This document shows, in pieces, positions 2,475 through 19,286 of a DNA stretch of 26,301 bases. Source of the stretch: a virus. The notes below the pieces were generated by a model. The model made no database searches. It saw only the letters and a program-made list of their open reading frames with translations, and was not told the DNA's origin. The position numbers and the translations under genes were made by a program. The stretch's first letter is position 1; each line of letters begins with the position of its first letter. The stretch is from the IMG/VR virus record IMGVR_UViG_3300025326_000183, positions 1-26,301 of that record; one strand, given 5' to 3'.

Positions 2475-3511
2475 CTGCCTTGCTCCTGGTAGCTCATCGT
2501 GTAGTCCATGTCCCGGAATACCCCCGGCTGCACGAACCACGGGTTGAGCGCTTCCGCCGCTTCCAGCCGGCTGCTCAGCATGCCCTTCACGATGTAGTAG
2601 TTCGGTTCGGTTGGGATCTGCTCGTAATAAAAATATCTGTCTCCCCTGACATATGCCCGGTATAAGGCCCCCCCGGCGTCGCCCATCTTCACCAGCCGTT
2701 TCAGCATCAGGTCCCAACAGCGCTCGTAGCCCTCGACCGTGCGTGTGATCGTGGTCGTGTTGTTCCAGATATTTCCCGGCGTCAGGAATGTGGCGCAGTC
2801 GTTCGTCAGGATGTCCACCATCCAGTCGTGGATCGTGTCCGTGGCGTCGTCGTCGGTGGTGGTGTGCCGCCAGTTGGCGGTGAAGATGTACCCGCATACC
2901 GTCACGTCCAGGCTGGCGATCCCCTCTCCCCCCGATGCCTGCGGCCGGGACCACGGCCAGGCGTGCTCCGCCAGGTAAGTCGCCGATCCAGCCGCCGCCA
3001 GCGCGCTGCCCGTCTTGGCCGCGTCTTCGATCGCTTCCCGCCGCCCGTAGCGGTCGATGCTCGCCTGCACCAGGCTGGCAGATGTGATGTGGTCTGTGCC
3101 GTCGTTCCACTTGGTCCGCACGTGGTTGTACATCTGGTCCAGCGAGCGCGTGCGGCTGGCGTTGTGGGTGTTCAGCGTCATCTCGTAGAGCATCCCCCGC
3201 CAGCTCACTACTCCCTGTACGCTCTCCTCCAGGTGATATCCCAGCCAGTTATAGAAATAATCCGTCAGCGTCGCCTCGTCGGCGTAGATGCGGAATGTCC
3301 CCTGCCAGTCCCCCCCCTGCAGCCTGACCTTGCGCTGCCAGGCCTGCGCTTCCTTCGTCAAATCCTTGACGAAGTTCTTCCCCAGCAGCACCGGCGTGAA
3401 CAGCAGCAGGCTGGGCTGGTACTCCGGCCCGGGGATCGCTATCTCCCGCCCCCAGTCCCACTGTACCCTGCCCCTGTCAACCGCTGGTATGCCTACCGGT
3501 GTCGTGAACAT
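2291..3511 (-). CDS. Distal tail / baseplate-type structural protein (406 aa)
   Basis: The second gene after the tape measure, where siphophages usually encode tail-tip or hub proteins. I do not recognise a named domain. It is a soluble, aromatic-rich mixed alpha/beta protein without membrane segments: an N-terminal beta-rich part (GRVQWDWGREIAIPGPEYQP), a central region with many Thr/Asp (WRHTTTDDDATDTIHDWM) and a C-terminal helical part. It ends with an extraordinary basic tail, AKAKPKKKKKKKKK. Its ATG overlaps the stop of the upstream gene (TGATG at 3513-3509), indicating translational coupling. The poly-lysine end abuts the apparent junction with the truncated regulator, so the original C-terminus may have been altered. 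Structural role is from position only. Confidence 0.65.
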   Translation of the reverse strand: MFTTPVGIPAVDRGRVQWDWGREIAIPGPEYQPSLLLFTPVLLGKNFVKDLTKEAQAWQRKVRLQGGDWQGTFRIYADEATLTDYFYNWLGYHLEESVQGVVSWRGMLYEMTLNTHNASRTRSLDQMYNHVRTKWNDGTDHITSASLVQASIDRYGRREAIEDAAKTGSALAAAGSATYLAEHAWPWSRPQASGGEGIASLDVTVCGYIFTANWRHTTTDDDATDTIHDWMVDILTNDCATFLTPGNIWNNTTTITRTVEGYERCWDLMLKRLVKMGDAGGALYRAYVRGDRYFYYEQIPTEPNYYIVKGMLSSRLEAAEALNPWFVQPGVFRDMDYTMSYQEQGSYLADVRDLIVEEVSVGVNSGLSWQALDFSESAQLAAYQEYVKVAAPAKAKPKKKKKKKKK

Positions 3512-4923: not shown

Positions 4924-6753
4924 TCACCCCATGCTTGCATTTAATCTGCTCAGCCTGCTATTCATCAGCATCGCCAGGCTCAGCGCCGCCGCCTGCTGGT
5001 TGTAGTTGTTGATCTCGATATACGTATCCCCACCGCCGCCCGGTTCGCTCTTGCCCGGCGGTGTGACCGTCACGTGCTCGCCCGAGGAGGTCCATACCGG
5101 GAAGGTGTCGTTCGGAAAGCCGGGCGGGATGTACGTATCCAGGCCGTGCTGCCCGCCGTAGCCCTGGCCGGTCTGGTTTTTGTATGTTTTAGTCGTTTGC
5201 ATCAATACTTTAATCGTGATCGTCTTGCTTTTCAGCTTTTCAATTTCCGACCTGAGATCGTAGGCTTTTTGAATGGCAGTTTGAGTGTTAGAAGCTAAAT
5301 CTTTCATCCCGCTTTTCAATGTATCAATTGCCGGAAAGGCTGTTGTTGTTATCCCTCTGGCTAATTCATCGCCCTTCTTTTTATATTCTGCCTCCGAGAT
5401 AGCGCCGGCCTCGAACGACAAGGTCAATATATCAATTTGCCGTTGCATTTCGAGTTCTTTGGCGGTCGTCTCGCCTGACTTTATTCTCAGCTCATCAAGC
5501 AGCCTATTTTTTTCGAAAAGCGGAACATTTGACTTTGCCAGGGCAGCGGCTAACTCTCCATATATCCCAGGCGCCTTTTCGTTCAGCGAATTGACCGATG
5601 CCTGCAGCTCTTTGGATTTCCGTAACTCCGTATTGACCATGCTCTGGGCTGCTGCCAGGTTCTCTTCAGCCTCCCTCATCCCGTCTGTAAGAGAGATCGA
5701 CGTTGGGTGTAATCCCGCCCGGATCTGCTCAACTTCCAGGGTGCCCGACAACGAATAATTGTATTCGTCTACCTTTCCCTTCAGCCATTCGATGGCATTC
5801 GCATCCTCGTAGCTGCTGAAGGCGATCTTGTCTACCTGCTCCGCCAGCTCGGCGTGCGTGATGATCCCTTGCTGCTCCGCTTCTCTTAGTAGCGTCTGCG
5901 CCTCCATCGATGTCGTCAGCGCATCCGCCATCCCCGCCAGCCCGACGTTCGAATCCCTTACTGCCGGCAGCAGCCCCTTCCCGATCACTTCCTTCAGGTT
6001 GCCCAGCGAGTTCTTTAACGAATCGCTGCCCGCCCCCGCTTCGTGCATCGCTGCCGCCGTCCCCCCGAACTCGGTCTGCAGCTCGCCCAGGATGATCTTC
6101 TGCGCTTCGTATTCCTTCCCCGATTCCACCAGGCTTTTGATCAGGTCCTGCTGCTGGTCGGTGAGCTGCACGCCCACCCTTCGCAGCGCTCCCGCCCCTT
6201 CGATCGGGTCGTTCAGCGCCTTACCGACCTGTACGATACTGCTTTGTAAATCTTGCCCCATCGCCGCGCTCATATCCAGCGCCGCTTGCATCGCCTGCGG
6301 GAATATGTCCTCGCCCACCTTCGTGAACGTCAGCATCACCGCGCTCTGCTTCACGATCAGGTCGTCTTCTATCCCCGTCAGCCCGGATAGCTCGTCCGCC
6401 AGGTCGTTCACATCCCCCGCCGTCACCCCCGCCGCCCCACCCGTGCTCCTGATCACCGCCTCGAGCTGCGCCTGCGCCTTGGCTGCCGCTTCCGCTTCCG
6501 CCACGCTGCTCTTCATGAAACTGACCAGTGCGTATCCCGCGCTCACCAGAGCTCCGCCCGCCAGGAAACCCTTCACCGCCGTGCTGATCCCGCTGAACGC
6601 CCCCTTGATGCCCTTGGCGCCCTCGTCGATCGCTCCGGCGTCCTTCTTGAAATCCTTCGCCACCTTCGAAGCCCCGCTCATGTCCTTGATGAAATCGGAC
6701 GTGTCCGCCGCCAGCTTCGCGATCATGTTCCCAATTACAAACTCACCGGCCAT
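4924..6753 (-). CDS. Tail length tape-measure protein
   Basis: Sets tail length and is ejected ahead of DNA during infection. The 609-residue protein shows the expected profile: Ala/Ser/Lys-rich helical N-terminus (IAKLAADTSDFIKDMSGASK), a hydrophobic helix at about 63-80 (FLAGGALVSAGYALVSFM), the conserved core of lambda-gpH-like tape measures (about 85-270: AQLEAVIRSTGG, FPQAMQAALDMSAAMGQDLQ, QVGKALNDPIEGAGALRRVG), long coiled-coil stretches (about 360-520), and a Gly-rich C-terminus (QGYGGQHGLDTYIPPGFPND) ending in INNYNQQAAALSLAML. It follows the chaperones and gp10-like gene, as expected for the end of a tail-assembly block. At about 1.5 angstroms per residue it predicts a short tail near 90 nm. 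GAGG precedes the ATG by six bases. Confidence 0.92.
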   Translation of the reverse strand: MAGEFVIGNMIAKLAADTSDFIKDMSGASKVAKDFKKDAGAIDEGAKGIKGAFSGISTAVKGFLAGGALVSAGYALVSFMKSSVAEAEAAAKAQAQLEAVIRSTGGAAGVTAGDVNDLADELSGLTGIEDDLIVKQSAVMLTFTKVGEDIFPQAMQAALDMSAAMGQDLQSSIVQVGKALNDPIEGAGALRRVGVQLTDQQQDLIKSLVESGKEYEAQKIILGELQTEFGGTAAAMHEAGAGSDSLKNSLGNLKEVIGKGLLPAVRDSNVGLAGMADALTTSMEAQTLLREAEQQGIITHAELAEQVDKIAFSSYEDANAIEWLKGKVDEYNYSLSGTLEVEQIRAGLHPTSISLTDGMREAEENLAAAQSMVNTELRKSKELQASVNSLNEKAPGIYGELAAALAKSNVPLFEKNRLLDELRIKSGETTAKELEMQRQIDILTLSFEAGAISEAEYKKKGDELARGITTTAFPAIDTLKSGMKDLASNTQTAIQKAYDLRSEIEKLKSKTITIKVLMQTTKTYKNQTGQGYGGQHGLDTYIPPGFPNDTFPVWTSSGEHVTVTPPGKSEPGGGGDTYIEINNYNQQAAALSLAMLMNSRLSRLNASMG

Positions 6754-6767
6754 AACAAACCTCGCTC

Positions 6768-6832
6768 TCAGCTATTAGCTTTAAGCTGTCAGCTTTAAAA
6801 ATCTGTGTAAATCTGCGAAATCTGCGGATCAC
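6768..6832. repeat. Two dispersed repeats filling the gap before the tape measure
   Basis: The gap contains iterated CAGCTATTAGCTTTAAGCTG words, then the periodic AATCTGTGTAAATCTGCG plus AAATCTGCGGAT. The first family also occurs at 8109-8166 and 16241-16300. The second runs up to the stop of the gp10-like gene. Confidence 0.6.
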
Positions 6833-7314
6833 GCTCTTGCTCTTTTTAATCGTTCCATCAGCTCTCTTCCGATCACCACCTTCACCTTCTCCTCGCTCGC
6901 ATCGAATCCGGGTCGCATAAATGGGTCCGCCGCCATCCCCGGGTGGTTCATCACCCGCTCCCGCAAGTTTCCTCCAACCAGCAGCAGCGCCTCTGCCAGG
7001 CTGGCCTCGATCTCGTGCGGTCCCGCCCCCGTCTCGAAGAAACGGTAGAACCAATGGTCCCTGTCCGGACCTACGCTCACTCCCGCGTAGCCGCGCTTGA
7101 TGCTGCGCATGTCCGGGACCATGATAATGTTCGGCCCTGGCGCCCGGCTCTCGATCTCCGCCTCCAGCACCTTTCCCCCTTCCAGCACCGCCTCCATCAC
7201 CGCCGCCCCCGCTGCGATATCGCTCAGCTTCTGGAGCATCGCAATCAGCTCGTCCGCCCCCTCGAGCACGAACGAGCTGGAGCTCTTCATGTACGTAACC
7301 GCTTTTTTTGCCAT
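6829..7314 (-). CDS. HK97 gp10-like head-tail joining / tail-completion protein
   Basis: A 161-residue member of the HK97 gp10 family of head-tail junction proteins. Family hallmarks are visible: the N-terminal helical GADELIAMLQKLSDIAAGAA, EAVLEGGKVLEAEIESRAP, the core WFYRFFETGAGPHE and the near-C-terminal ADPFMRPGFDASEEKV with a helical end. The ATG at 7314 overlaps the upstream stop (TGATG), so it is translationally coupled to the T chaperone frame. The TTG one codon earlier is unlikely to be used. It is oddly placed: in HK97-like genomes this gene normally precedes the tail terminator and tube, whereas here it sits between the chaperones and tape measure. Confidence 0.85.
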   Translation of the reverse strand: MAKKAVTYMKSSSSFVLEGADELIAMLQKLSDIAAGAAVMEAVLEGGKVLEAEIESRAPGPNIIMVPDMRSIKRGYAGVSVGPDRDHWFYRFFETGAGPHEIEASLAEALLLVGGNLRERVMNHPGMAADPFMRPGFDASEEKVKVVIGRELMERLKRARA

Positions 7315-7730
7315 CAATCTCCCGTAGGGGCGGGTCGCGACCCGCCCTTACTATACCTCTCTGCCCACATCTTCACCTTCCGCCACACCTCCTCCGGCCG
7401 TGCCCCGCCGCTCTCCGCGGGGGTCGGCTCTTCTCCCCCTCTCCCTGTGGGAGAGGGGTCAGGGGTGAGGGCTCCATACCTCGGCATAAACTCCCCCGCC
7501 TCATACGGCTTCGGCCTCTTCTTCCCATCCCGGTACACGTTGGCGATCAGGCTGGCCACGATCCCGGCGCTCACCTCCGCCCGGTATCCCAGGCTCACCG
7601 GCTCCACCTGGTCGAACGCCATCCACTCCGCCATCACGCCCGCCGGCATGCGGCTCAGCAGCCCGTCCACGTCCCACACCCCCAGCGCCAGGCTCAGCCG
7701 GTAGGCGAATCTCCGCCAGGGGTCTCTGGA
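7314..7730 (-). CDS. gpT-like tail assembly chaperone extension (made by -1 frameshift from G)
   Basis: This frame has no convincing start of its own; it opens in the -1 frame of the upstream chaperone at a slippery heptamer (7736-7730). After the shift it reads SRDPWRRFAYRLSLALGVWD, then VDGLLSRMPAGVMAEWMAFD and IANVYRDGKKRPKPYEAGEF, the conserved T/DUF4035-type module. The fusion would be about 259 residues and should chaperone the tape measure while tail tube assembles. The only internal start is a GTG at 7679 without a good ribosome site. About the last 50 residues are repeat-derived: LTPDPSPTGRGGEEP from one palindromic element and GGSRPAPTGD from a second repeat, so the native C-terminus probably ended soon after EFMP. 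Confidence 0.85.
   Translation of the reverse strand, partial: SRDPWRRFAYRLSLALGVWDVDGLLSRMPAGVMAEWMAFDQVEPVSLGYRAEVSAGIVASLIANVYRDGKKRPKPYEAGEFMPRYGALTPDPSPTGRGGEEPTPAESGGARPEEVWRKVKMWAERYSKGGSRPAPTGD
7328..7347. repeat. Perfect 20-bp palindrome (GGGCGGGTCGCGACCCGCCC), dispersed-repeat type
   Basis: A fully self-complementary 20-mer flanked by CGTAG and TTA. It encodes the GGSRPAP end of the T chaperone frame and stops just before the TGATG coupling to the next gene. It resembles widespread bacterial dispersed palindromes. In RNA it would form a strong hairpin. Confidence 0.75.
7433..7471. repeat. Translatable palindromic repeat, copy 1 (in T chaperone)
   Basis: The stem CCCTCTCCC / GGGAGAGGGG is followed by TCAGGGGTGAGGG. 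On the coding strand it reads LTPDPSPTGRGGEE. It lies in frame after the conserved T module. Confidence 0.85.
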
Positions 7731-8077: not shown

Positions 8078-8108
8078 CGTCCGCCCTCTCAACTTGAATA
8101 GCTATATG

Positions 8109-8166
8109 CCGTAAGCTCTTAGCTCTTAGCTTTAAGCTGATAGCTGATAGCTGATAGCTGATAGCT
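8109..8166. repeat. Tandem 'agctgatagctgatagct' repeat in gap
   Basis: GCTCTTAGCTCTTAGCTTTA is followed by four TAGCTGA units, filling the space between the tail tube stop and the G chaperone. Related TAGCT/CAGCT words occur at 6768-6803 and 16241-16300. Confidence 0.75.
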
Positions 8167-8610: not shown

Positions 8611-8651
8611 CCTCTCCCCTTCCCTTTAGGGAAGGGGCCGGGGGTTAGGTT
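8611..8651. repeat. Translatable palindromic repeat, copy 2 (intergenic)
   Basis: CCCCTTCCCTTTAGGGAAGG with a GGCCGGGGGTTAGG tail, lying between the tail terminator stop (8652-8650) and the tail tube gene. It is the one copy wholly in a gene gap between two well-defined genes. Confidence 0.9.
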
Positions 8652-9042
8652 AAGCCCTATACATGATTCCCACGTCCACCCTGGTCGTATACACACCTCC
8701 TACAGCTCCCCACCCGTCGAACTCATTCAGCACCTCCCCGCTTTCCACCGTCACATCCCCCATCAGCCCCTTATACCCTCGCACCGCGGAACCTATCATC
8801 CTCGCCAGCTCCTTCGCCGCCTCGAACGTGTTCCCCTGGCAGGTGAGCTGCACGCGCGCCGTCTTGAGCTTGCTCAGACCGTCGTGGTCCATGATCTCCG
8901 TCTGGCTGATCACCTGGTACGCCGCCGCCGGCCTGCTCACCTCTTGCGGGATCGTCATCGGGTAGATCCTGGTCTCCACCAGGTTGTACACTTCCGCTTT
9001 GGTCGTCAGGTACTCATACAGCCCTTCCTCGATGTTGCTCAT
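8650..9042 (-). CDS. Tail terminator / completion protein (DUF3168 family), internal start
   Basis: A 130-residue protein that should cap the tail tube and join it to the head. It starts MSNIEEGLYEYLTTKAEVYN and shows family marks RIYPMTIPQEVSRPAAAYQV, then TARVQLTCQG, FEAAKELARMIGSAV and VDVGIMYRA. It lies directly before the tail tube gene, the standard slot. AGGAGG lies 11 bases upstream of this ATG, so it can be translated alone. However, it is also in frame with, and not separated by any stop from, the upstream beta-helix frame, so a fused product is equally readable. Normal family length is about 110-140 residues, which argues that this internal start gives the functional protein. Confidence 0.85.
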   Translation of the reverse strand: MSNIEEGLYEYLTTKAEVYNLVETRIYPMTIPQEVSRPAAAYQVISQTEIMDHDGLSKLKTARVQLTCQGNTFEAAKELARMIGSAVRGYKGLMGDVTVESGEVLNEFDGWGAVGGVYTTRVDVGIMYRA

Positions 9043-10527
9043 GGTCGTCGATACCTCCTCTACCAGCCACACGCCATAGGACGGGAACGGCTCGCTCGGC
9101 CACGCGATCGGGCTGTCGTATCCCGTTGGGCTTCTCAGGCTCCAGTCCGCTGCCAGCAGGCTGATCGTCAGGTTCGGGCTGTCCGCGTCATACGTGAACT
9201 CCACGTACTCGCTCATGTTCAGGCAGTTGTAGTAACGGCAGGTCGCCCCGTTCTCCAGCCCCAGGGGTGTCAGGTTTACAGTCACGCTGCTCGCCCCCAG
9301 GAAGTTCATCGCTACCACAAACCCTCTGCCTGCCGTGCTAGCCGGGATCGCTGCGACTGTGTTGCTGGTGGGCAGCCCCGAATTGTGCGTGGTGGCTGCG
9401 TCGAACCCGCTAGATGCTTGCCAAGTGGCGTAGTTCGATGCCACGCCGTTGTATTGGAATGCCGCCGATCCCGCTGGATTTCCCCAGTACACATTTTGGT
9501 TCCATATCACCGTTCCCGGGGTGTTGTTGGGCATGTAGTCGCCGATCTCCTTGCTGCCTCCTGAGTTGTTCACAGCCAGGTTGGATAATAAGTTGACGTT
9601 CTTGAAGCCGCGGCAATACAGCACGTATACCCCCACCGCGTCCCACACCGTGTTGTGCTGCAACGTGATCGCTGAGGGATTGGCGTTGCTCGTGTCGATG
9701 CTGGCCTGGATCGCTGCCCGGTTGCCCATCACGTAGTTGTATGTCACCACGTTGCCGCTATTATCGTAGCTCGGCGCTCCGATCAGGATCTTGCCGTGCA
9801 TCACTACATTGTGGTCGAGGGTGTAATCCCGCACGTCGGCTGCCGTGCCGTAAAAATGGAGGTTGTAAGCCTGGCTGGCGTAGGTCGATTGGAACGAATA
9901 TAAGAACACGTTATTTTTGATGCTCACCGCTCCGCCGCCGTGGTTGTGAGCGTATAGGTTGTAGCCGGCGTTGTAGCCCAGCGCCGCGGAATAAAACCCG
10001 TTCCACCCAACCACGCACCCGTCCATCTCGAACCCTGCCGCCTCCATCGGGTATATATTCTCGCAGTCGTGGATGTAGCAATCGTAGATCTTGATCCCCG
10101 CCGCTGTGATGTAGATCGCCGGGTAGTCCACGTTGGCCTGCGCTGCAAAACTCCTGGTTGTGGGCGTGGGTGCTATCTCGATCCCCTGGATCGTGATGTA
10201 GCTGCAGTTCCCGCTCGTGAAATGCACCCCGCCATTGATCCTTACCGTTTCCCGTAGATAATTCTTGAACGTGATCTGGCTGCCGCTCGCTCCAGATACC
10301 TTGAACGTGTACACGCCCTTCCCGGCGACCGCCGCCGTGCCGTCCATATAGGTTACAGCCGTTTCACCCTTCACCAGCGGCGTGTACGTCCCCGCCCTCA
10401 GCAGCACCTTATCCCCCGCCGCCACCGGGCTTCCCGCCGCAATTAACGACTCCAGCGTGCGCGGGTCGCTGGAACTCCCCAGCCCCGTCGCACTGCCTGT
10501 CGTCGCTACAACCCAGATCCGAGCCAT
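8650..10527 (-). CDS. Right-handed beta-helix protein fused in frame to tail terminator
   Basis: The 625-codon frame starts MARIWVVATTGSATGLGSSS, with GAGGTAA just upstream. Residues about 20-320 have the look of a right-handed parallel beta-helix: AGDKVLLRAGTYTP, GSQITFKNYLRETVRINGGV, YITIQGIEI, IKIYDCYIHDCENIYP, AVSIKNNVFLY, YTLDHNVVMH, ITLQHNTVWDAVGVYV, VNLLSNLAVNNSGG. These regularly spaced I/V-x-N-N-x-V turns are typical of tailspikes, pectate lyases and NosD-type repeats. Residues about 380-490 form a beta-sandwich-like end (LGASSVTVNLTPLGLENGAT). No signal peptide is present. M496 then begins the DUF3168 tail terminator. The beta-helix could be a tailspike or side fibre that binds or cleaves glycans; catalytic residues cannot be assigned by eye. 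Confidence 0.8.
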   Translation of the reverse strand: MARIWVVATTGSATGLGSSSDPRTLESLIAAGSPVAAGDKVLLRAGTYTPLVKGETAVTYMDGTAAVAGKGVYTFKVSGASGSQITFKNYLRETVRINGGVHFTSGNCSYITIQGIEIAPTPTTRSFAAQANVDYPAIYITAAGIKIYDCYIHDCENIYPMEAAGFEMDGCVVGWNGFYSAALGYNAGYNLYAHNHGGGAVSIKNNVFLYSFQSTYASQAYNLHFYGTAADVRDYTLDHNVVMHGKILIGAPSYDNSGNVVTYNYVMGNRAAIQASIDTSNANPSAITLQHNTVWDAVGVYVLYCRGFKNVNLLSNLAVNNSGGSKEIGDYMPNNTPGTVIWNQNVYWGNPAGSAAFQYNGVASNYATWQASSGFDAATTHNSGLPTSNTVAAIPASTAGRGFVVAMNFLGASSVTVNLTPLGLENGATCRYYNCLNMSEYVEFTYDADSPNLTISLLAADWSLRSPTGYDSPIAWPSEPFPSYGVWLVEEVSTTMSNIEEGLYEYLTTKAEVYNLVETRIYPMTIPQEVSRPAAAYQVISQTEIMDHDGLSKLKTARVQLTCQGNTFEAAKELARMIGSAVRGYKGLMGDVTVESGEVLNEFDGWGAVGGVYTTRVDVGIMYRA

Positions 10528-10535
10528 CCGTTACC

Positions 10536-10817
10536 TCACCCTCTCCGCCCGCTCGTCCATCCCGGCCTCTTCCTCGATGTGTCCACCGGTCTGCTCCTGC
10601 TGCTCTCTTCTTCTCTCTTGACCTTCCTTGCTACCCCTCCTCCACTTCCATACATGATCATCAGTATCCCCGCCAGGATGCCCCGGTAGCTTCCTGCCAC
10701 CTGCTGGCGGTCGCCCTGCGTGTGCGTTCCGGGCGTGGGCAGCACCAGGTGCGCATCGATCCCGGATGCCATAAGGCTCGCCCGCTTATCTCTCGTGTCA
10801 ATTGCCACTATGCCCAC
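10536..10817 (-). CDS. Small conserved-type phage protein (93 aa)
   Basis: Begins MGIVAIDTRDKRASLMASGI from a GTG at 10817, overlapping the end of the Ser-Asp repeat gene. A second GTG at 10808 (reading VAIDTRDKR, TAGTG overlap) has GGGGAG at better spacing and may be the true start. Residues 1-60 (LVLPTPGTHTQGDRQQVAGS, YRGILAGILMIMYGSG) resemble a short module that I associate with structural operons of phages of GC-rich bacteria, located beside fibre genes. The C-terminal third is very basic and Ser/Arg-rich. It has no assigned function. Its tight packing between fibre-type genes suggests a virion or assembly accessory. Confidence 0.6.
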   Translation of the reverse strand: MGIVAIDTRDKRASLMASGIDAHLVLPTPGTHTQGDRQQVAGSYRGILAGILMIMYGSGGGVARKVKREEESSRSRPVDTSRKRPGWTSGRRG

Positions 10818-13120
10818 TCCCCGCGTACGAAGGTCGTCCCGTCATCGCTCACCGCTGCGCTGGCAATGTCCGCCCCGTCCGCGTCGTTCCTCAGGCTCTC
10901 CACCGCGCTGGTCGCCGTGCGCTTGTTCCTCGCCAGTGCAAACACGAAGGCCAATTTATCGCCGTAGCCGGCATTTGCCGCCGGCACGCCTGCGATCTCC
11001 GCTTCAGCCGTGTCCCATACCTGCGAATACAGGTCGCTCAGCGAGCTGGCGCCCACCGTCACGCCGGCTGCCAGGTTGGAGTACACGTCGCTCAGCACCC
11101 CGCTCATCCCCGCTAAATAAGATCGTAGATCGCTGGTCAGGTCGCTCAGCTGCGAGTTGGTCGCCACTGCTTTCGGCACACGAGACTGAAAGTCGCTCTG
11201 AACATCTGATAATAATGAGTAGATGTCCGATACTCTCGACTGGTTTAGCAGCACCCGGCTGTTCGTCTGCTGGGCTGCGCTCAAGATGTCGCTCAGGTCA
11301 GAAGCCAACACCGCCTGCACCCGGCTGGCGATGTCCGAGATGTCGCTCGCTCCCAGCGTAAAGGCTACCGCTGCAATCGCACTGCGCAGGTCGCTCATGT
11401 CGCTGGCATTCAGCGGCACACCCGCTGCAAACTGGCTGTCCAGCGCACTCTGCACGTCGCTGATCACACTGGCGTTCAGGTCGAGTTGGCTTTCCACATC
11501 GCTCACCATCGACCGCACCACCAGCACCCGGGAATTTCCCTGCTGCGCTGCGCTCAGGATGTCTGAAATATCGCTGGCCAGGATCGCCTTGACCGCCGAG
11601 GCGATGTCGCTGATGTCGCTGGCTGTGACCGTTGTCACTGCCGCAGCCACTGCCGAGGCAATGTCGCTGATATCCGATGCCGTCAGCGTTACGGATACCG
11701 CCCCGATCTTGCTCCCCAGGTCGCTGTTCATGTCGCTCAGGAAGCCGCTGTTCCATACGAACTGCGAGTCCAGCGCGCTCTCTATATCCGACACGTTTGA
11801 CTGGATCAGCACGATCCTGGAGGAGACTGCTGCCCCGATCGCCGTCGCCCATACCCGGCTGGCGATATCGCTCATGTCCGACGCGCTCACGCTGGCCGTC
11901 ACTCCGGCAATCGCACTCCTCAGGTCGCTCAGGTCGCTGGCCGTCAGTGGGTGACCGGCTGCAAACTGGCTGTCCAGCGCGCTCAGTACGTCGCTGATCA
12001 TGCTGGCGTTCAGGTCGAGCTGACTGTCCACGTCGCTCACCAGAGATTGCACCACCAGCGCCCGGCTGTTCCCCTGCTGCGCCGCGCTCAGGATGTCCGA
12101 GATGTCGCTGGCCAGGATCAGCTTGACCGCGCTGGCAATGTCCGAGATGTCGCTCGCCCCGATGCTGGCCGTCACCCCTGCGATCGCCGATCTCAAATCG
12201 CTCAGATCGCTGGCGTTCAGTGGGTGACCGGCCGTGAACTGGCTGGTCAGGGCGCTGTCCACGTCCGATACTAACGACTGGATCAACAGGATCCGGCTAT
12301 CGACCCGCACCCCTGCTGCCGTCGCCCATACCCGGCTGGCGATATCGCTCATGTCCGAGGCGCTCACGCTGGCCGTCACTCCGGCAATCGCACTCCTCAG
12401 GTCGCTCAGGTCCGAGGCGTTCAGCGGGTGACCGGCTGCAAACTGGCTGTCCAGCGCGCTCAGTACATCGCTGATCATGCTGGCGTTCAGGTCGAGCTGG
12501 CTCTCCACGTCGCTCACGTTCGACTGGATCAACGCAATCCGGGAAGATACCGCTGCCCCGATCACTGTCGCCCATACCCGGCTGGCAATGTCGCTCATGT
12601 CCGAGGCGTTCAGCGGGTGGCCCGCCGTGAACTGGCTGGTCAAGGCGCTGTCCACGTCGCTCAGCATGCCGCTCATCCCCAGTAGGTAAGATAATAGATT
12701 GCTGTTCACATCACTCAGCAAGGACTGCGACGCTACAGCCTTCGGCACCCGGCTCTGGAAATCCGACATCAGATCGGATAGCAGCGAATAGGCATCCGAC
12801 GGGTCGATTTCCTGCGGCTGGAAGATCAGGATCTGGTCGGCGCAGGATGGGTGCGAATAGCGGATAATCAGGTAGTCATAATTACATTCCGCCGCCTTCA
12901 ATGTCTGCTGGAAGATGCCCGAGTGTACCAGCGTCACTGCTTTCGAGATCGTCCCCGATGTGAACGCATCGCTCACCCCGTGATTGACCCCAAAGAATTT
13001 CTTGGTCGCCGCCGAGTTGAAATCGCTGGCCGTGATCCCGCTCTCGATTGTGGCAAAGTCCGTCTTGTCCACCATCGGGAACATGATCTGGTTCATGGCG
13101 TTCTTTTTAAAATTCGGCAT
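10808..13120 (-). CDS. Ser-Asp repeat structural protein, probable fibre (770 aa)
   Basis: Three parts are visible. Residues 1-108 are a non-repetitive beta-rich head (MPNFKKNAMNQIMFPMVDKT, TISKAVTLVHSGIFQQTLKA, DQILIFQPQEIDPSD). Residues about 109-690 are an imperfect repeat array built from short words such as ASDISDIASAV, LSDVDSALTSQF, AAGHPLNASDLSDLRSAIAG and SRVWATAIGAAVSSRI. The last 80 residues (VWDTAEAEIAGVPAANAGYG, LAFVFALARNKRTATSAVES, SDDGTTFVRGEWA) resemble a terminal module common in phage fibre-like proteins. The regular hydrophobic spacing suggests trimeric helical or beta-prism repeats. Ser and Asp dominate, giving many possible O-glycosylation sites. The start has AAGGAG six bases upstream and overlaps the methyltransferase end by 14 bases. 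The array holds long near-identical DNA repeats and could change length by recombination. Confidence 0.8.
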   Translation of the reverse strand: MPNFKKNAMNQIMFPMVDKTDFATIESGITASDFNSAATKKFFGVNHGVSDAFTSGTISKAVTLVHSGIFQQTLKAAECNYDYLIIRYSHPSCADQILIFQPQEIDPSDAYSLLSDLMSDFQSRVPKAVASQSLLSDVNSNLLSYLLGMSGMLSDVDSALTSQFTAGHPLNASDMSDIASRVWATVIGAAVSSRIALIQSNVSDVESQLDLNASMISDVLSALDSQFAAGHPLNASDLSDLRSAIAGVTASVSASDMSDIASRVWATAAGVRVDSRILLIQSLVSDVDSALTSQFTAGHPLNASDLSDLRSAIAGVTASIGASDISDIASAVKLILASDISDILSAAQQGNSRALVVQSLVSDVDSQLDLNASMISDVLSALDSQFAAGHPLTASDLSDLRSAIAGVTASVSASDMSDIASRVWATAIGAAVSSRIVLIQSNVSDIESALDSQFVWNSGFLSDMNSDLGSKIGAVSVTLTASDISDIASAVAAAVTTVTASDISDIASAVKAILASDISDILSAAQQGNSRVLVVRSMVSDVESQLDLNASVISDVQSALDSQFAAGVPLNASDMSDLRSAIAAVAFTLGASDISDIASRVQAVLASDLSDILSAAQQTNSRVLLNQSRVSDIYSLLSDVQSDFQSRVPKAVATNSQLSDLTSDLRSYLAGMSGVLSDVYSNLAAGVTVGASSLSDLYSQVWDTAEAEIAGVPAANAGYGDKLAFVFALARNKRTATSAVESLRNDADGADIASAAVSDDGTTFVRGEWA
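11842..12022. repeat. Long direct repeat, copy A (181 bp) in Ser-Asp array
   Basis: Matches 12319-12499 at a constant offset of 477 bp (159 codons) with about eight mismatches by eye, clustered around 11927-11940. It encodes the unit running from ATRVW-type words through LDSQFAAGHPL to QLDLNAS. Confidence 0.85.
12319..12499. repeat. Long direct repeat, copy B (181 bp) in Ser-Asp array
   Basis: Second copy of the 11842-12022 unit, 477 bp away. Shorter related segments occur throughout 11280-12690. Such identity allows deletion or expansion of whole 159-residue blocks while keeping frame. Confidence 0.85.
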
Positions 13121-13751
13121 CCTTCACTCCTTCCTTCTCCCCTTCCCTTTTAGGGAAGGGGCCGGGCGAAGTCCCGTCGTTCTTGGACGGGAGGGTTAGG
13201 TTGAAAATCAGCCCTTCCGCCGTCCCTGGCTCGCCGTTGTACCAGTACCATTCCACGATCCCGTACCCGTGTCGCTCTACCAGCACTTTCAGCGTGTGCC
13301 AGCTGTAATACGCCACGTGCTCTGGGTTGACCATCTCGACCCCCCCTTGAATATACTGGTACCCGCTCTTATTCATGGCGTTGGGCGTGGTCAATATCAG
13401 CGGACATTTATACCCATGCAGTAGGTCCAGGAAGTGCCCTGCGTTGCTCAGGTGCTCGATCACCTCGCCTGCGATCACCACCTCCACCCCGGGGATCCCC
13501 GGCAGCTCCTGCGCCGTGTCCAGGTCGATGCACCATTCCGCATTAGCCCGGTTGATGCTGTGGTACTCGCCCGCTATTTGCCGGATCGCCTCGCTCATCG
13601 GCCCGCTCGCCCCAACATCCAGCACTACCTTGCCCTTGGCCTGTCCCAGCAAGTATTGCTCCCGGCTGATCGATTCAGCCATCGGCACCCGGTGCTCCAT
13701 CTTCGCCAGGTATTCCGCCCTGGTATCTAGTAGATCATAAATATCGTTCAT
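13107..13751 (-). CDS. Class I SAM-dependent methyltransferase (sugar/virion modification?)
   Basis: A Rossmann-fold methyltransferase of 214 residues. Motif I is KVVLDVGASGP (41-51), an acidic cofactor position follows near 75-78 (CIDLD), and later motifs are VVIAGEVIEHLSNAGHFLDL (91-110) and CPLILTTPNAMNKSGY (116-131), in the style of Methyltransf_11/23 enzymes acting on small molecules or sugars. It overlaps the glycosyltransferase upstream by 17 bases and the Ser-Asp repeat gene downstream by 14 bases, so the three are probably co-translated. Residues about 184-206 (SKNDGTSPGPFPKREGEKEG) come from a palindromic repeat; the native enzyme probably ended near GLIFNL. The target is not shown by the sequence; methylation of a sugar placed by the neighbouring enzyme is my inference. 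Confidence 0.85.
   Translation of the reverse strand: MNDIYDLLDTRAEYLAKMEHRVPMAESISREQYLLGQAKGKVVLDVGASGPMSEAIRQIAGEYHSINRANAEWCIDLDTAQELPGIPGVEVVIAGEVIEHLSNAGHFLDLLHGYKCPLILTTPNAMNKSGYQYIQGGVEMVNPEHVAYYSWHTLKVLVERHGYGIVEWYWYNGEPGTAEGLIFNLTLPSKNDGTSPGPFPKREGEKEGVKDAEF
13135..13202. repeat. Translatable palindromic repeat, copy 3 (long form, methyltransferase end)
   Basis: CCCTTTTAGGG-type stem (CCCTTCCC.TTTT.AGGGAAGGGG) whose tail GGCCGGG..GGGTTAGG is split by a 26-base segment, AGTCCCGTCGTTCTTGGACG, itself partly palindromic. It extends the methyltransferase reading frame into the next gene's start. Confidence 0.85.
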
Positions 13752-14658
13752 AGATCGCTATGCTTTCCTTCACCGTGTCCGCTACGTTGTGGTGATCGAT
13801 CGCCCATTGCCGGTAGTTCACCTGCCCGTAGTTCTCCCAGCACTTGATGATCGTCGCCGCTATGCTCTCCGGCTGCAGCTCGCACGTCCACGGGTAACCG
13901 TCCTCCCGGTATCCCGGCCCGATGAACGCCTTGCCCGCTCCAAAGGCTTCGATACCCCTGGCATACAGCGGGTAGAGACCGCTCACTACCATATCCACCC
14001 GGTTGTAGAGCGTGTTCACGTCCTGCACCGGTCCCTGCAAGGACCGCACGAACGTCCACCACTTGTTGTTCTGTACCAGCGCCGAGAAAGTGTCCTTCAT
14101 GCGCTTATCTGTCAGGTTATACAAATGGAGCCTGGCGTTCGGATACCTCTTCCACACCTCCTGCATCGCCACGCACAGGTACAGCGGGTTGCGCTGCCCC
14201 CGCCAGTTCTCCACATACAGCACCGCCGGCTCGCCCGATAGCCGCTCGGTCACGCCCTCCAGCGGGGAGTACACGTCCAGGTCGATGCCCTTGCGCACGT
14301 AGTAGGTGCGCTTGATGCTGTTCCACACGATCAGCTCATCTTTCCTCATAGCAATGAACGCATCCATCACCGGCGCCAGGTCCACGATCGCCTTCATGCT
14401 CACTCCGTTCCCCACGCTGGATAATGGCTCGCCGTGCATCCACATGAACTTCGGGTTCCCGTTGTGGTACTGCGTGATCGGCATCTGGCTGTGCACCAGC
14501 TCCACGTCCGGCTCGCGCATCACACCGTAGATCGCCCCTTCCGCCTGTGGCTCGCGCAGGCATACGCCGTGCCCTTGCTTCTCCTCGTAGTTCGCCAGCT
14601 CTAAGGTCGTCCGGAAGAGCCCGCTATTTTCCTTCTTGACATAGTGCATCAGGTTCAA
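13735..14658 (-). CDS. GT-B fold glycosyltransferase (group 1 / GT4-like)
   Basis: A 307-residue enzyme expected to move a sugar from a nucleotide donor to an acceptor. The N-terminal Rossmann-like half begins MNLMHYVKKENSGLFRTTLE and carries VELVHSQMPITQYHNG and the acceptor-side KFMWMHGEPLS. The C-terminal half has AVLYVENWRGQRNP, ARLHLYNLTD, and the donor-site signature RGIEAFGAGKAFIGPG (234-249, E237), typical of GT4. The start is a TTG at 14658 with GGAGG about 10 bases upstream; ATG at 14649 is an alternative. It overlaps both neighbours. Placement directly before a methyltransferase and a Ser-Asp-rich fibre suggests virion glycosylation. Modification of host surface glycans is the main alternative. 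Confidence 0.83.
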   Translation of the reverse strand: MNLMHYVKKENSGLFRTTLELANYEEKQGHGVCLREPQAEGAIYGVMREPDVELVHSQMPITQYHNGNPKFMWMHGEPLSSVGNGVSMKAIVDLAPVMDAFIAMRKDELIVWNSIKRTYYVRKGIDLDVYSPLEGVTERLSGEPAVLYVENWRGQRNPLYLCVAMQEVWKRYPNARLHLYNLTDKRMKDTFSALVQNNKWWTFVRSLQGPVQDVNTLYNRVDMVVSGLYPLYARGIEAFGAGKAFIGPGYREDGYPWTCELQPESIAATIIKCWENYGQVNYRQWAIDHHNVADTVKESIAIYERYL

Positions 14659-15869
14659 GGTAGATTAACCCTCCGTGAAATGCCTGCATGCACGCCCAGC
14701 GGGCGCGCGTCGGTGTTCTTCGTCGTCCGTCCTCCCCCTGCCCCATAAGTCGCATAAACCGATACGAAGAAAAATATTGAGAAATCGTTGATGGTCGTTG
14801 GGACAGTCGGGTATGTGGACGCTGTCTCGCCATATCCATAATCCCCCGCGTTATCAACGTAAATTAATCCGGTGCCTCCCAGGCTTTCACACACCACACC
14901 GAGATAATAGAAACTCGATGCTGTTACTGATGGTGGCGTTGCAAATGTTAGATCATACCAACCTACAGTAGAGACTAAAGTTGCTCCCGTTTCACCATTG
15001 GTTAATTTTGTCAAACTGTTATTGTGAATGCCACCCTTGAAATTCTTGTTTGCTGATGTCGCCTCGACGTAGGCCGTCAGCTTCGATACGGTCCCGGAGC
15101 CCGTTGGCGTGCCGCCGCCGGTGATATAGATATTTTCGACGTTTGCCCCAAATGCCCCGGCTGTCTCATACCCGAACGTCGGATCGATGACGATCGGATA
15201 GGCCGCCGCGTCCAGCCAGGCCCCGTCCACGCTCAGCGTCAGCGTGTTGGCAAGCGGGTCGATGTCGATGTCCGCCCAAATCCAGTTGCCCAGGCTATCT
15301 GTTACTTTGGGCCGGAAAATGTGGAATGCCTTGCCTGTGCGGTAATTCTTTTCTCCAAGGCGATAATCCCGCTTGCTTTCGTGGTATACGGCGTAGGAGT
15401 TGACCGCGTTCTCCGGCTGGATCCATCCCCGGTCCAGCAGCTCCTGCGGCAGCGCTGGCTGCTTGATGAATTTCAGCCCCTTATGCGTGATCGCCACCGT
15501 GATCGAGTCGACCGGTGGCCGGCTGGGGATCAGGATCTCGAACTCGAAACCGCCCTCGCCCGACGCCTCCGGATGGTCGTAGAAGATCGCCCGGTAGCCG
15601 TTCTTTTGCCAGGTGATCGTCTCCACGCCCTCGTAGCTGACCTGCTCCGCCTGGTTGCCGGGGATATTGAGCGCCAGCGCAAAGTTAACTTCATCGTCCC
15701 ATTTCTTTATTTTGAAATGGGGTCTGAAATTATTGCGGTCGGTGATATCCCCCACCTCGATCTCCAGCCGTTCTTCGACGTTCGCCCGCTGCACCTTCAC
15801 CAGGGTGTTGTTGGCAATCGTGTACTTGGCCGTGATGGCGCCCGGCGGGTTATTGGGCAGCTTAGCCAT
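14655..15869 (-). CDS. Structural-type protein with beta-sandwich C-terminus (404 aa)
   Basis: Starts MAKLPNNPPGAITAKYTIAN, with AGGTGAG five bases upstream; the longer frame to 15899 is a repeat-derived extension. Residues about 1-210 are beta-rich with DEVNFALALNIPGNQAEQVS, PPVDSITVAITHKGLKFIKQ and NWIWADIDIDPLANTLTLSV, then AAAYPIVIDPTFGYETAG marks a domain border. Residues about 235-375 look like a jelly-roll (NIYITGGGTPTGSGTVSKLT, GGIHNNSLTKLTNG, GWYDLTFATPPSVTASSFYY), as in carbohydrate-binding decorations. The end (KNTDARPLGVHAGISRRVNL) seems unstructured. It lies between the head-closure gene and the second modification block, so a capsid decoration or neck fibre is plausible. No family named with confidence. 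Confidence 0.65.
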   Translation of the reverse strand: MAKLPNNPPGAITAKYTIANNTLVKVQRANVEERLEIEVGDITDRNNFRPHFKIKKWDDEVNFALALNIPGNQAEQVSYEGVETITWQKNGYRAIFYDHPEASGEGGFEFEILIPSRPPVDSITVAITHKGLKFIKQPALPQELLDRGWIQPENAVNSYAVYHESKRDYRLGEKNYRTGKAFHIFRPKVTDSLGNWIWADIDIDPLANTLTLSVDGAWLDAAAYPIVIDPTFGYETAGAFGANVENIYITGGGTPTGSGTVSKLTAYVEATSANKNFKGGIHNNSLTKLTNGETGATLVSTVGWYDLTFATPPSVTASSFYYLGVVCESLGGTGLIYVDNAGDYGYGETASTYPTVPTTINDFSIFFFVSVYATYGAGGGRTTKNTDARPLGVHAGISRRVNLP

Positions 15870-15879
15870 TCTTCTCACC

Positions 15880-15909
15880 TGGCACATGACACTTGGCACG
15901 TGACACTAT
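15880..15909. repeat. Dispersed 'cttggcac(a/g)tgacact' repeat in gap
   Basis: ACCTGGCACATGACACTTGG followed by CACGTGACACT fills the gap between the head-closure gene and the structural gene. It resembles 1411-1441. It provides a spurious N-terminal extension for the 404-residue gene. Confidence 0.6.
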
Positions 15910-16235: not shown

Positions 16236-16240
16236 AAATA

Positions 16241-16300
16241 GCCCTCAGCTTTCGGCTATCAGCTTTCAGCTCTTGCTGACCGCTGACTGCTGACCGCTCA
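16241..16300. repeat. Dispersed 'cagctttcggctatcagct / gctgaccgctgact' repeat in gap
   Basis: CTCAGCTTTCGGCTATCAGC, TTTCAGCTCTTGCTGACCGC and TGACTGCTGACCGCT fill the gap between the two connector genes. The first half matches the TAGCT/CAGCT family at 6768 and 8109. Confidence 0.7.
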
Positions 16301-17162: not shown

Positions 17163-17221
17163 TCTTCTCTGTGTTCTCCGTGCATTGCCCCGGTTCCTGC
17201 ACGGGGACTCTGTGGTTAAAC
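17163..17221. repeat. Dispersed 'ctctgtgttctccgtg...actctgtggtta' repeat interrupted by a hairpin
   Basis: TTCTCTGTGTTCTCCGTG and ACTCTGTGGTTAAACT flank a short hairpin, GCCCCGGTTCCTGCACGGGG. The flanks look like a single periodic repeat split by a second small element. It fills the gap between the second glycosyltransferase and the 76-residue gene. Confidence 0.55.
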
Positions 17222-17863
17222 TAATTCCTTCTCCGGCCTGCCCAGCCCCGGCTCCCTCACCTGCGCCCGGGCAAACAGGCGATCGAACCACGCAAAAGAA
17301 TACCCGCCTTCCCACAGCGCATCTATGAAATCGAAATCGCCCGCATACCGCTTCCCAAAGCGGGTCACATTTTCCGTGAACACCCCCCGGCGCGTCACGT
17401 AAGAGCCCAAGTCCACATAGCCCTCGCGCGGCTTCTCCTGCCAGATCAACGGCAGGTTTAGCCCGCGCTTGATATTCCTCACCATCACCACGTCCGGCCC
17501 CCTGTCCACGTCATTGCGAGGAGCGCCCTTAGCGACGAAACAATCTTCTCCCGCCCATATAAACCTCGCCAGGTCCGCCACCACCCGCTCGTCCGCCAGC
17601 TCGTCATCGTCCTGTAGCACGTACACGTACTCGCCCATCATCTCGTCCACGTGCCTGCCGATCTCCGCGAACATCCCCGCAATCCCCACCCCCACCTCGT
17701 CCACCACCACCAGGTGCTGTATCAATTCCCCTACCCCCTCTCCCGCTGGGAGAGGGCTGGGGTGAGGGCTCCGAAGGAGTGTTTGCGCGCAAACACTCTC
17801 CTTACACCGCTCCAGCATCCCCGGCCTCTTGTAGGTCGGCGTGTAAATGGTTAGAAAAAGCAT
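17216..17863 (-). CDS. GT-A fold glycosyltransferase (GT2-like) interrupted by two in-frame repeats
   Basis: Begins MLFLTIYTPTYKRPGMLERC, the nucleotide-sugar binding start of family-2 glycosyltransferases, followed by ESVCAQT. The next strand of the fold (HLVVVDEVGVGIAGMF) is displaced by a palindromic repeat encoding residues about 32-44 (SPHPSPLPAGEG). The metal-binding motif YVLQDDDELAD has D85-D87. A second, unrelated repeat adds FVAKGAPRNDV (about 109-119) before VVMVRNIKRGLNLPLIW. The C-terminal part (ENVTRFGKRYAGDFDFIDAL) completes a short catalytic domain. The frame is intact, so loop extensions may be tolerated, though reduced activity is possible. It overlaps the upstream methyltransferase by 13 bases. 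Confidence 0.78.
   Translation of the reverse strand: MLFLTIYTPTYKRPGMLERCKESVCAQTLLRSPHPSPLPAGEGVGELIQHLVVVDEVGVGIAGMFAEIGRHVDEMMGEYVYVLQDDDELADERVVADLARFIWAGEDCFVAKGAPRNDVDRGPDVVMVRNIKRGLNLPLIWQEKPREGYVDLGSYVTRRGVFTENVTRFGKRYAGDFDFIDALWEGGYSFAWFDRLFARAQVREPGLGRPEKELV
17508..17545. repeat. Dispersed repeat 'tcattgcgaggagc...gcgacgaaacaatc' inside glycosyltransferase
   Basis: TCATTGCGAGGAGCGCCCTT followed by AGCGACGAAACAATC is a dispersed element type I recognise from many bacterial genomes. It is read here as CFVAKGAPRND in the glycosyltransferase frame. Confidence 0.75.
17732..17770. repeat. Translatable palindromic repeat, copy 5 (in GT2-like gene)
   Basis: CCCCTCTCCCGCTGGGAGAG stem with GGCTGGGGTGAGGG tail. 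It sits exactly where the first loop of the GT-A fold is expected. A 22-bp perfect palindrome (17777-17798) follows a few bases later. Confidence 0.88.
17777..17798. repeat. Perfect 22-bp palindrome in glycosyltransferase coding sequence
   Basis: GAGTGTTTGCG and CGCAAACACTC are exact complements. It encodes ESVCAQT, a normal family-2 sequence, so the symmetry may be partly coincidental. It adjoins repeat copy 5. Confidence 0.7.
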
Positions 17864-18438
17864 ACGCCGATACCTTTTTCTGCCTGATTGGAAAAGCTGG
17901 TGAGCTCCATCGTCTTTGATCTATCCTTGAGGGTTGCCCACAGGCGATACACCTCGATCGATGGATCGCTTGGATGATATAAGATGTCATGCAAAGCCAC
18001 GACCCCGCCCTCCGCCGCCATCGAGGAATAATCCTCGAAATCCTGAACCACTCCCTTGTAACTGTGGTCGCCGTCGATGAAGATAAGATCGAATGGTCCT
18101 CTTTTGCTTGCCCACCGTCGGCTGGCTGGATCATGGCTATCTTTCGATAAGAGCTGGAACGTCACACCCAATGATTCTGCCCAATGCTGCCATTTCTTGG
18201 GGTGAGCTGTCTTGCTAATTCCCCATGCCGCTCCGGGGAGATCGATAGCGCACACGAATCCGCCCGGTCCAATTAACTTCATCCACTGGTAGAGCGTGCC
18301 GCCCTCGAATGCGCCAATCTCAAGCACACGCCAGATATTTCGTTCCTGGAGCAGCGATAGCAGCCCTTGGAACTCACCGGCGTATTGGTTAGGCTGAACG
18401 GGCGCCTTAGGATCGTAGAACATCAAAGCCTCGGCCAT
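17851..18438 (-). CDS. Class I SAM methyltransferase (Methyltransf_24 / CmcI-like)
   Basis: A 195-residue Rossmann methyltransferase: motif I WRVLEIGAFEGGTLYQWM (36-53), CAIDLPG (63-69) at the cofactor ribose site, and FDLIFIDGDHSYKGVVQDFE (117-136) followed by GGVVALHDI, the pattern of CmcI-like and Methyltransf_24 enzymes that often methylate sugars or small hydroxylated compounds. GAGG precedes the ATG by about six bases. It overlaps glycosyltransferases on both sides, forming a compact three-gene block between capsid and connector genes. No repeat has entered this gene. O-methylation of a virion glycan is my inference; a host-surface or DNA-linked sugar remains possible. Confidence 0.85.
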   Translation of the reverse strand: MAEALMFYDPKAPVQPNQYAGEFQGLLSLLQERNIWRVLEIGAFEGGTLYQWMKLIGPGGFVCAIDLPGAAWGISKTAHPKKWQHWAESLGVTFQLLSKDSHDPASRRWASKRGPFDLIFIDGDHSYKGVVQDFEDYSSMAAEGGVVALHDILYHPSDPSIEVYRLWATLKDRSKTMELTSFSNQAEKGIGVCFF

Positions 18439-19286
18439 AATACCTCACCGTTGGTATTCTTATGCCCGCACACCACCCGCATCTCCGCCGCCTGCCGGAA
18501 GCCCGCTCTCAGAACGTCCGTGCTGAAATAAGTATCGCAATGCGCGCTGTTGCGCTCATCTATTCTCAGCTCGAGCCTTTCTAGCACCCGCCTGCGGATC
18601 AGCGTGCACCCAAACCCCGCCCCCGAGCACGGGTACACTCCCAATTTCACCGCCCGCTTTAGCAGGTGCGGGTGGATGCTCAGGCTCTCCCCGATGTTCC
18701 TGGGCGTCCCTGGGTACAGCTCGAAGATATTGATCACATCGCTCGCTCTGAAGCGGTACACCCCGTAAATCACATCCGCCGGAACTGCCGCCAGCCTGGT
18801 CAGCGCATCCCTGGGCGGGATCATATCGCTCTCCACGATCAGCATCGCATCGTACCGGCCCTGCAGGAATGTCTCCCGTCCCCGCTTGTACTGGTGCAGA
18901 TGGTTCAGGATCCCCGCCTTTCTTGCGTCTCCACTCCGGGCTAAGTCCCCAATGATCTCTTGGGGATTATCCCGTTGGAACACCCACGTAATCGCTCCAT
19001 CCCACTCCAAAGCCAATACAGCCTCCACCGTCTCCGGTTCCAACCGGTACACCGGCGTGAACACCATAATGTCCTTGATCTCCCCCTTCCCTTTTAGGGA
19101 AGGGGGCTGGGGGGTTAGGTTAGGATAACGGTCATCCATCCTATCCTCGTAATCCTCCTCGTTCACCCTCTCCACCAGCTCCTGCCTCTCCAACTGGATC
19201 ACGGTGGGCCGGTCCAGCTCCATCACCTCGCCGGCCCACCTCACACTCCCTTCCACCACCGTATTTTCCAAGACCCTGATCTTCAC
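18423..19286 (-). CDS. Fusion of small structural-type domain to GT-A glycosyltransferase through a repeat
   Basis: Residues 1-53 (MKIRVLENTVVEGSVRWAGE onward) match the small protein at 16913-17143. Residues 54-69 (NLTPQPPSLKGKGE) are a palindromic repeat. From M74 a GT-A-like glycosyltransferase begins (MVFTPVYRLEPETVEAVLAL), with the DxD-type metal motif AMLIVESDMIPPRDALTRLA (152-154), VIYGVYRFRA, a Gly/Cys-rich CSGAGFGCTLIRRRVLERL acceptor region and CDTYFSTDVLRAGF. The frame starts at a GTG (19286) with a weak ribosome site. The ATG of M74 (19067) has AAGGA four bases upstream, so the enzyme can also be made alone. It is the first gene after the capsid, and its end overlaps the methyltransferase by 16 bases. 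Confidence 0.82.
   Translation of the reverse strand: MKIRVLENTVVEGSVRWAGEVMELDRPTVIQLERQELVERVNEEDYEDRMDDRYPNLTPQPPSLKGKGEIKDIMVFTPVYRLEPETVEAVLALEWDGAITWVFQRDNPQEIIGDLARSGDARKAGILNHLHQYKRGRETFLQGRYDAMLIVESDMIPPRDALTRLAAVPADVIYGVYRFRASDVINIFELYPGTPRNIGESLSIHPHLLKRAVKLGVYPCSGAGFGCTLIRRRVLERLELRIDERNSAHCDTYFSTDVLRAGFRQAAEMRVVCGHKNTNGEVLWPRL
19080..19125. repeat. Translatable palindromic repeat, copy 6 (fusion joint of glycosyltransferase)
   Basis: CTTCCCTTTTAGGGAAG stem, then GGGGCTGGGGGGTTAGGTTA. It encodes the linker between the small structural-type domain and the enzyme. Confidence 0.9.

Follow-up and report, generated by a model that had tools for sequence, protein, structure and literature searches.

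A conserved glycosyltransferase, methyltransferase and Ser/Asp-repeat fiber cassette in uncultured tailed phages, with predicted fiber glycosylation

A glycosyltransferase (GT), a methyltransferase (MT), and a Ser/Asp-repeat fiber are encoded in this order on one strand in all 14 distinct uncultured phage types in which the region is visible, next to an upstream protein with a C-terminal tail that most of these phages share. That the linkage is conserved in 14 or more different phages, all of them uncultured, suggests, from sequence comparison, that they decorate their own fibers with capped sugars. We put at about even the chance that the four genes form a late cassette of uncultured tailed phages making a glycosylated, O-methylated fiber and/or partner protein. 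To our knowledge, virion protein glycosylation has been described for very few phage systems, mainly mycobacteriophages, and no report of a GT4-MT-Ser/Asp fiber cassette was found in the open literature searched.

RESULTS

Gene order and overlaps in the window

The stretch of DNA analyzed here (the window) is a 26.3-kb virus record from IMG/VR. Spurious open reading frames (ORFs) aside, its genes run on the minus strand from terminase to tail, beginning with TerS, TerL, portal, protease, and major capsid protein. A first GT/MT/GT group (17216 to 19286) and connector-type genes come next, followed by the 414-aa upstream protein, the GT, the MT, and the Ser/Asp protein (Table 1), and then by a beta-helix/tail-terminator fusion, the tail tube, the tape measure, and more tail genes. 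An integrase-like ORF is located at 231 to 1274. Domains were taken from Pfam and PHROGs searches, and the remaining genes were named from position and by eye. As sequence searches of Pfam, PHROGs, and PDB with the window proteins gave weak matches (E = 0.032 for the GT and 3e-4 for the MT against Pfam), assignments were made through family alignments and a predicted fold.

Table 1. Features of the cassette, with positions in the window
Feature	Position	Strand	Basis
Upstream protein of 414 aa with a variable body, tagged by the conserved C-terminal tail	14655..15899	-	ORF, comparison of relatives
Conserved C-terminal tail GGRTTKNTDARPLGVHAGISRRVNLP; stop codon overlaps GT start	14658..14735	-	Family comparison
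GT4-type (GT4-like) glycosyltransferase, 307 aa, TTG start	13735..14658	-	AlphaFold2, VIA-align, family alignment
Class I SAM methyltransferase, 214 aa, of which roughly the first 185 form the core	13107..13751	-	Methyltransf_23, alignment, PDB 3cc8
Dispersed GC-rich palindromic repeat, lengthens the MT and makes the 14-nt overlap	13129..13173		Repeat family D7
Ser/Asp-repeat fiber, 770 aa	10808..13120	-	ORF, SD count, relatives in 14 phage types
Conserved beta domain at the fiber N-terminus, about 105 aa	12806..13120	-	AlphaFold2, BFVD matches, alignment
Predicted shaft of Ser/Asp heptads (b and f Ser, c Asp)	11021..12805	-	Position table, periodicity
Fiber C-terminal tip domain, exchangeable between phages	10811..11020	-	Microcystis phage match, tips of relatives

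The three ORFs and the two longer overlaps between them stand in the ORF list exactly as an earlier note on this DNA had described them: the GT and MT genes share 17 nt (13735 to 13751) and the MT and fiber genes 14 nt (13107 to 13120). The upstream ORF and the GT gene overlap by 4 nt (14655 to 14658). The 17-nt overlap is also found in L012; in the other members, neighboring cassette genes mostly lie end to end or share a few bases, with genes inserted between cassette neighbors in some of them (L036, L042, and L049). The earlier note had also read likely co-translation from the overlaps; the 14-nt one does not speak for co-translation as an evolved feature. That overlap stems from MT residues 186 to 214, which are encoded by a palindrome and its flanks (13129 to 13173), and the palindrome is one of several family D7 copies in the window. 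The same residues are missing from 13 other aligned MTs, all of which end before the extension, so that the overlap is not ancestral. Being the product of an inserted palindromic repeat, it was rejected as a sign of evolved coupling and is no evidence for it.

Conservation and inheritance of the cassette

A scan of IMG/VR with a trimmed GT4 alignment yielded 17 loci. With near-identical records counted once, these represent the window phage, L012/L013, L036, L037, L038, L039/L041, L040, L042, L043, L044, L045/L046, L048, L049, and a truncated L004, with GT4 identities to the window copy of 59 to 87%. The order GT4, MT, Ser/Asp fiber on one strand was present in 14 of 14 phage types with the region visible, and a GT gene is in this way genetically tied to a virion-type protein in every one of them, as in a virion-glycosylation module. 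The reverse scan, starting from the N-terminal 105 residues of the fiber, returned 14 loci, of which 13 were on contigs already known and one on a short contig (L054) with an MT and the end of a GT4 upstream of the fiber. The earlier note had proposed to check whether related phages carry all three genes together, and this is strongly borne out from both ends. No fiber devoid of the enzymes was recovered in the reverse scan of IMG/VR at sequence-recognizable distance; because the scans were built on patterns from known members, which enzyme-free fibers may escape, this counts as evidence rather than proof. Scans of IMG/VR with single proteins reached no further than the same phage or its nearest relatives, and the complete GT4 and MT alignments, used as queries, added nothing.

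Two capsid relatives of the window phage (L007 and L008) contain neither the GT4/MT enzymes nor a Ser/Asp-rich ORF; as they lack both fiber and enzymes, they were counted in favor of a cassette that modifies its own fiber. Among phage records, GT4 and MT had no match anywhere, including in a Microcystis phage whose fiber has the same tip as that of the window, a different N-terminal domain, and no Ser/Asp shaft, and this fiber was counted in favor of the same reading. In the same records, the window capsid protein had no match, nor did the conserved tail or the shaft (the latter query was possibly masked by the BLAST low-complexity filter), and the fiber gave one match to its tip and one insignificant match to its N-terminus (E = 1). 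Neither GT4 nor the fiber N-terminus had a relative in the genome contigs, which therefore gave no host name; relatives of TerL are spread over many hosts. The strong linkage shows, as judged from gene content, a functional dependence, without telling which protein is the substrate.

A TerL related to that of the window was detectable in 3 of 14 records, some of which are fragments, at 30 to 33% identity, and the packaging and capsid genes of a fully read 42-kb contig differ from those of the window. The best reading of these comparisons is that the cassette is mobile and that its linkage is held across phages with different packaging genes. Pairwise distances were correlated between GT4 and MT (r = 0.55, p = 0.0004), between GT4 and the fiber N-terminus (r = 0.41, p = 0.003), and between MT and fiber (r = 0.28, p = 0.013). 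These correlated distances point to a block whose parts are for the most part passed on together, while fiber subtypes are exchanged to some extent.

A heptad pattern in the Ser/Asp fiber

The window fiber contains 53 SD dipeptides, compared with 13.0 ± 3.2 in composition-preserving shuffles (z = 12.7), and its gene carries direct repeats of 42 to 251 nt. The repeats fit a heptad of the form phi-S-D-phi-x-S-x. When 13 fibers were pooled, the surroundings of SD showed a hydrophobic residue at +2 (~90%) and Ser at +4 (80%), with further hydrophobic residues at +6 and -1, and the Ser/Asp periodicity was about 3.5 to 3.9 residues in most members examined. Read from these patterns, the shaft is predicted to be helical, with hydrophobic residues at heptad positions a and d, whereas the exposed positions hold Ser (b and f) and Asp (c). 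Such repeats resemble an amphipathic helix and not a disordered stalk, and the exposed Ser and Asp could be purely structural.

AlphaFold2 models the first ~100 residues of the fiber as a beta domain (pLDDT 72 to 88), followed by helices of low confidence. The beta domain resembles BFVD predictions of tailed-phage proteins, which in some cases carry a tail-protein or BppU annotation, at identities of 20% or less, and a fold search of the PDB with the fiber model returned only generic Ig-like matches with E above 0.01. From the position of the gene and this N-terminal fold, we infer that the fiber is a structural protein of the virion. The C-terminal tips differ among relatives; that of the window is 52% identical to the Microcystis phage protein. 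The N-terminal fold also recurs in structure predictions for other phage proteins, which was counted against the glycosylated-fiber reading together with the chance that the scans miss enzyme-free fibers.

A shared C-terminal tail on the upstream protein

In 13 of 14 phages, the ORF upstream of the GT ends in a shared C-terminal tail of about 25 residues (GGRTTKNTRxxPLGxExGMxxR). This tail-tagged protein is the fourth part of the cassette and was missed in the earlier note. The bodies of these proteins are mostly unrelated between phages (LamG in two, the others without clear family), and within the sequence searched the tail occurs only at the end of this ORF. It lies immediately 5' of the GT gene in 11 phages, with an inserted gene between them in 2 more. 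Because synonymous sites in the tail codons are near saturation (pS ~0.7) and nonsynonymous divergence is lower (pN ~0.3), the peptide is selected at the protein level; the saturation of the synonymous sites also led us to reject the idea that a recombination site in the DNA explains why the tail is shared. The GT may use the tail as an acceptor or as a tag for recognition, or the tail may be a peptide that docks to the fiber, and the first option is attractive since mycobacteriophage virion glycans are reported at C-termini.

Taken to its limit, a tail acting as recognition or acceptor peptide would mean that the enzymes modify only the tail-tagged protein and that the fiber is a structural partner rather than a substrate. 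The adjacency of the tail to the GT, its presence on otherwise unrelated proteins, its codon pattern, and the C-terminal glycans that PMC12619734 describes for mycobacteriophage virion proteins all fit such an arrangement. However, L049 keeps GT4, MT, and fiber with no such tail upstream, and the tail could equally serve in docking to the fiber, so that we consider an exclusive modification of the tagged protein unlikely.

Predicted activities of the two enzymes

The AlphaFold2 model of the GT, obtained with 14 GT sequences as input (pLDDT 86.4, pTM 0.83), has a GT-B fold with two Rossmann domains, and its nearest structures in VIA-align are GT4 enzymes and their neighbors. BshA is the closest (Z = 26.6, rmsd 3.2, 300 residues aligned), HepE, MshA, and PimA are also near, and the protein O-glycosyltransferases GtfA (4pqg) and SdgB (7vfl) reach Z scores of 23.0 and 22.9. 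In the family alignment, the second Glu of the GT4 EX7E motif is conserved (E237) and the first is not, being replaced by Y, F, D, or H across the family (Y229 in the window GT); the segments HGEPLSSVGNG and ENWRxxRNP are, like E237, nearly invariant. Given one Glu kept and the other lost, catalysis is likely but not certain, and we call the enzyme GT4-like without claiming formal membership of GT4, a family of retaining GT-B enzymes. The earlier note's GT4-like assignment is in this sense upheld by the fold model. The window GT had no Pfam match to DUF1975, its 307 aa aligning end to end with the GT-B core.

Methyltransf_23 was found in 14 of 14 family MTs (best E = 4e-15), and PDB sequence relatives of the MT comprise the methyltransferase 3cc8 (E = 4e-11) as well as O-methyltransferases. 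With a SAM-binding core and its motifs, the protein is a class I SAM methyltransferase, in agreement with what had been proposed. Its position beside the GT suggests that it O-methylates the transferred sugar.

The two enzymes might instead modify a host surface glycan, in receptor masking or superinfection exclusion, and lie near the fiber because fiber and receptor co-evolve. Temperate phages encode GTs that alter host serotype, according to the account in PMC12619734, and the integrase-like ORF of the window would suit such a lifestyle. Yet, in the members examined, the genes sit inside the late structural block, on the same strand and abutting the fiber gene; the cassette showed neither a membrane-embedded partner nor a flippase; and dependence on one fiber family with exchangeable tips is not expected from receptor masking, which leaves this role quite improbable. 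Very improbable, finally, is a GT that is a non-catalytic relative serving as fiber assembly factor beside a protein-modifying MT, for although the first EX7E Glu is lost and the GT is very strongly conserved together with the fiber, E237 and the two sequence segments are nearly invariant and a neighboring MT with intact SAM-site motifs fits a chemical product.

DISCUSSION

We favor a cassette whose enzymes act on its own products. The GT4-like enzyme would use a nucleotide-sugar donor to glycosylate proteins of the cassette, the likeliest acceptors being the b- and f-position Ser exposed along the helical Ser/Asp shaft, with Thr or Asn of the upstream protein's conserved tail as further candidates. 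The neighboring MT would then cap the transferred sugar by O-methylation. The conserved N-terminal beta domain would anchor the fiber to the virion, and the tip and the tail-tagged partner would be swapped between phages, probably to alter binding. Possible roles of the glycan include protection from proteases, shielding, and tuning of adsorption. More tentatively, the genes may amount to a mobile, self-sufficient module for fiber decoration, composed of a coiled-coil shaft with Ser exposed at b and f for O-glycosylation, a dedicated GT4-like enzyme, a capping MT, and an adhesin with a C-terminal tag. We hold with similar reserve that the exchangeable adhesin of this module, which has not been seen in cultivated phages, could be recruited or marked through the common tag.

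Several mycobacteriophages, Che8 and Rita among them, are reported to have glycosylated virions (Freeman et al. 2023, as cited in PMC12619734 and PMC11256854), with the glycans placed at the C-terminal ends of subunits of the capsid and the tail tube (Freeman 2023, as cited in PMC12619734). Phage-encoded GTs are common to both cases, with virion glycans reported there and predicted here. The targets given in those accounts are major capsid and tail tube subunits, whereas here they would be the Ser/Asp fiber and its tail-tagged partner, and the phages of our set are without a cultivated relative carrying these genes.

Staphylococcal Sdr proteins and their enzymes SdgA and SdgB likewise combine a Ser/Asp-rich surface protein with a GT-B enzyme, the fold of SdgB being that of the cassette GT (7vfl). 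The analogy to Sdr repeats drawn in the earlier note nevertheless fails at the level of the repeat. SDSD is absent from 13 of 13 cassette fibers, the DSD motif that SdgB minimally needs as acceptor (PMC8561734) does not occur in the window fiber and occurs 0 to 2 times in the others, and the repeat is an amphipathic-helix-like heptad in place of a dipeptide, for which reasons a direct Sdr analogy was rejected. The cassette GT is also shorter than the SdgB chain (307 aa versus ~500 residues), is without the DUF1975 domain inserted in SdgB (PMC8561734), and is accompanied by an MT.

Streptococcal serine-rich repeat adhesins with GtfA/GtfB offer another case of a dedicated GT beside a Ser-rich repeat adhesin, with the GtfA fold (4pqg) similar to that of the cassette GT, but the phage cassette has no GtfB partner or accessory Sec genes and its shaft is coiled-coil-like. 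Phage tail and BppU-type proteins resemble the fiber in the predicted N-terminal beta domain, whereas only this fiber family has the Ser/Asp shaft and the enzymes linked to it. On gene content, the cassette would be a phage module of virion-glycosylation type, with a putative chemistry, and not a member of the Sdr/Sdg group.

With a module passed on as a block in otherwise unrelated phages, the means and purpose of fiber glycosylation become directly testable with three or four genes. The repeat design hints at where the sugars may sit, and the partner protein carries a common peptide tag. If the cassette works as proposed, it would provide a compact tool to decorate coiled-coil proteins.

Two IMG/VR loci carrying the GT4 glycosyltransferase family, L036 and L042, have HNH-like ORFs, recognized by eye, between GT4 and the upstream gene encoding the tail-tagged protein (L036:1428-1943 and L042:7030-7584), and the C-terminal tail is conserved in both despite this insertion. 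L049, a cassette member without the tail-tagged protein, harbors an additional methyltransferase-like ORF and an unassigned 241-aa ORF as insertions within its cassette (inserted region 8882-11114).

In the tail region of the window, the tail terminator (8650-10527, minus strand) carries a fused beta-helix domain, which is missing from the protein of locus L011, whose tail terminator part is 65% identical. Another tail-region protein (2291-3511, minus strand) ends in nine consecutive lysines, encoded by a poly-A/T tract. GC-rich palindromic repeats are scattered through the window; many lie within ORFs, where they are translated in frame into Pro/Gly/Arg-rich inserts. Short AGCTGAT/AGCTTTC-type repeats occupy intergenic gaps (6764-6794, 8101-8166, and 16240-16271).

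Positions of dispersed repeats and of modification-type genes
Feature	Location	Coordinates	Strand	Assignment
GC-rich palindromic repeats	Window	7427, 8606, 13129, 16977, 17735, 19074, 21573, 22413, 22455, 23657, 24419
Sulfotransferase-like gene and two glycosyltransferase-like genes	L013 contig	5495-6334, 6816-7448, 10021-11109	Reverse-strand coordinates	By eye

The modification-type genes tabulated for the L013 contig lie amid structural genes. A second enzyme set follows the major capsid protein gene in the window (17216-19286, minus strand), comprising GT-like, Methyltransf_24, and GT2-like genes. In L004 and in L006-L008, the GT-like gene of this set has likewise remained next to the gene for the capsid protein. 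Glycosyltransferase and methyltransferase genes are also found downstream of the capsid gene in the unrelated L013 contig. The window's set may be a capsid-glycosylation module.
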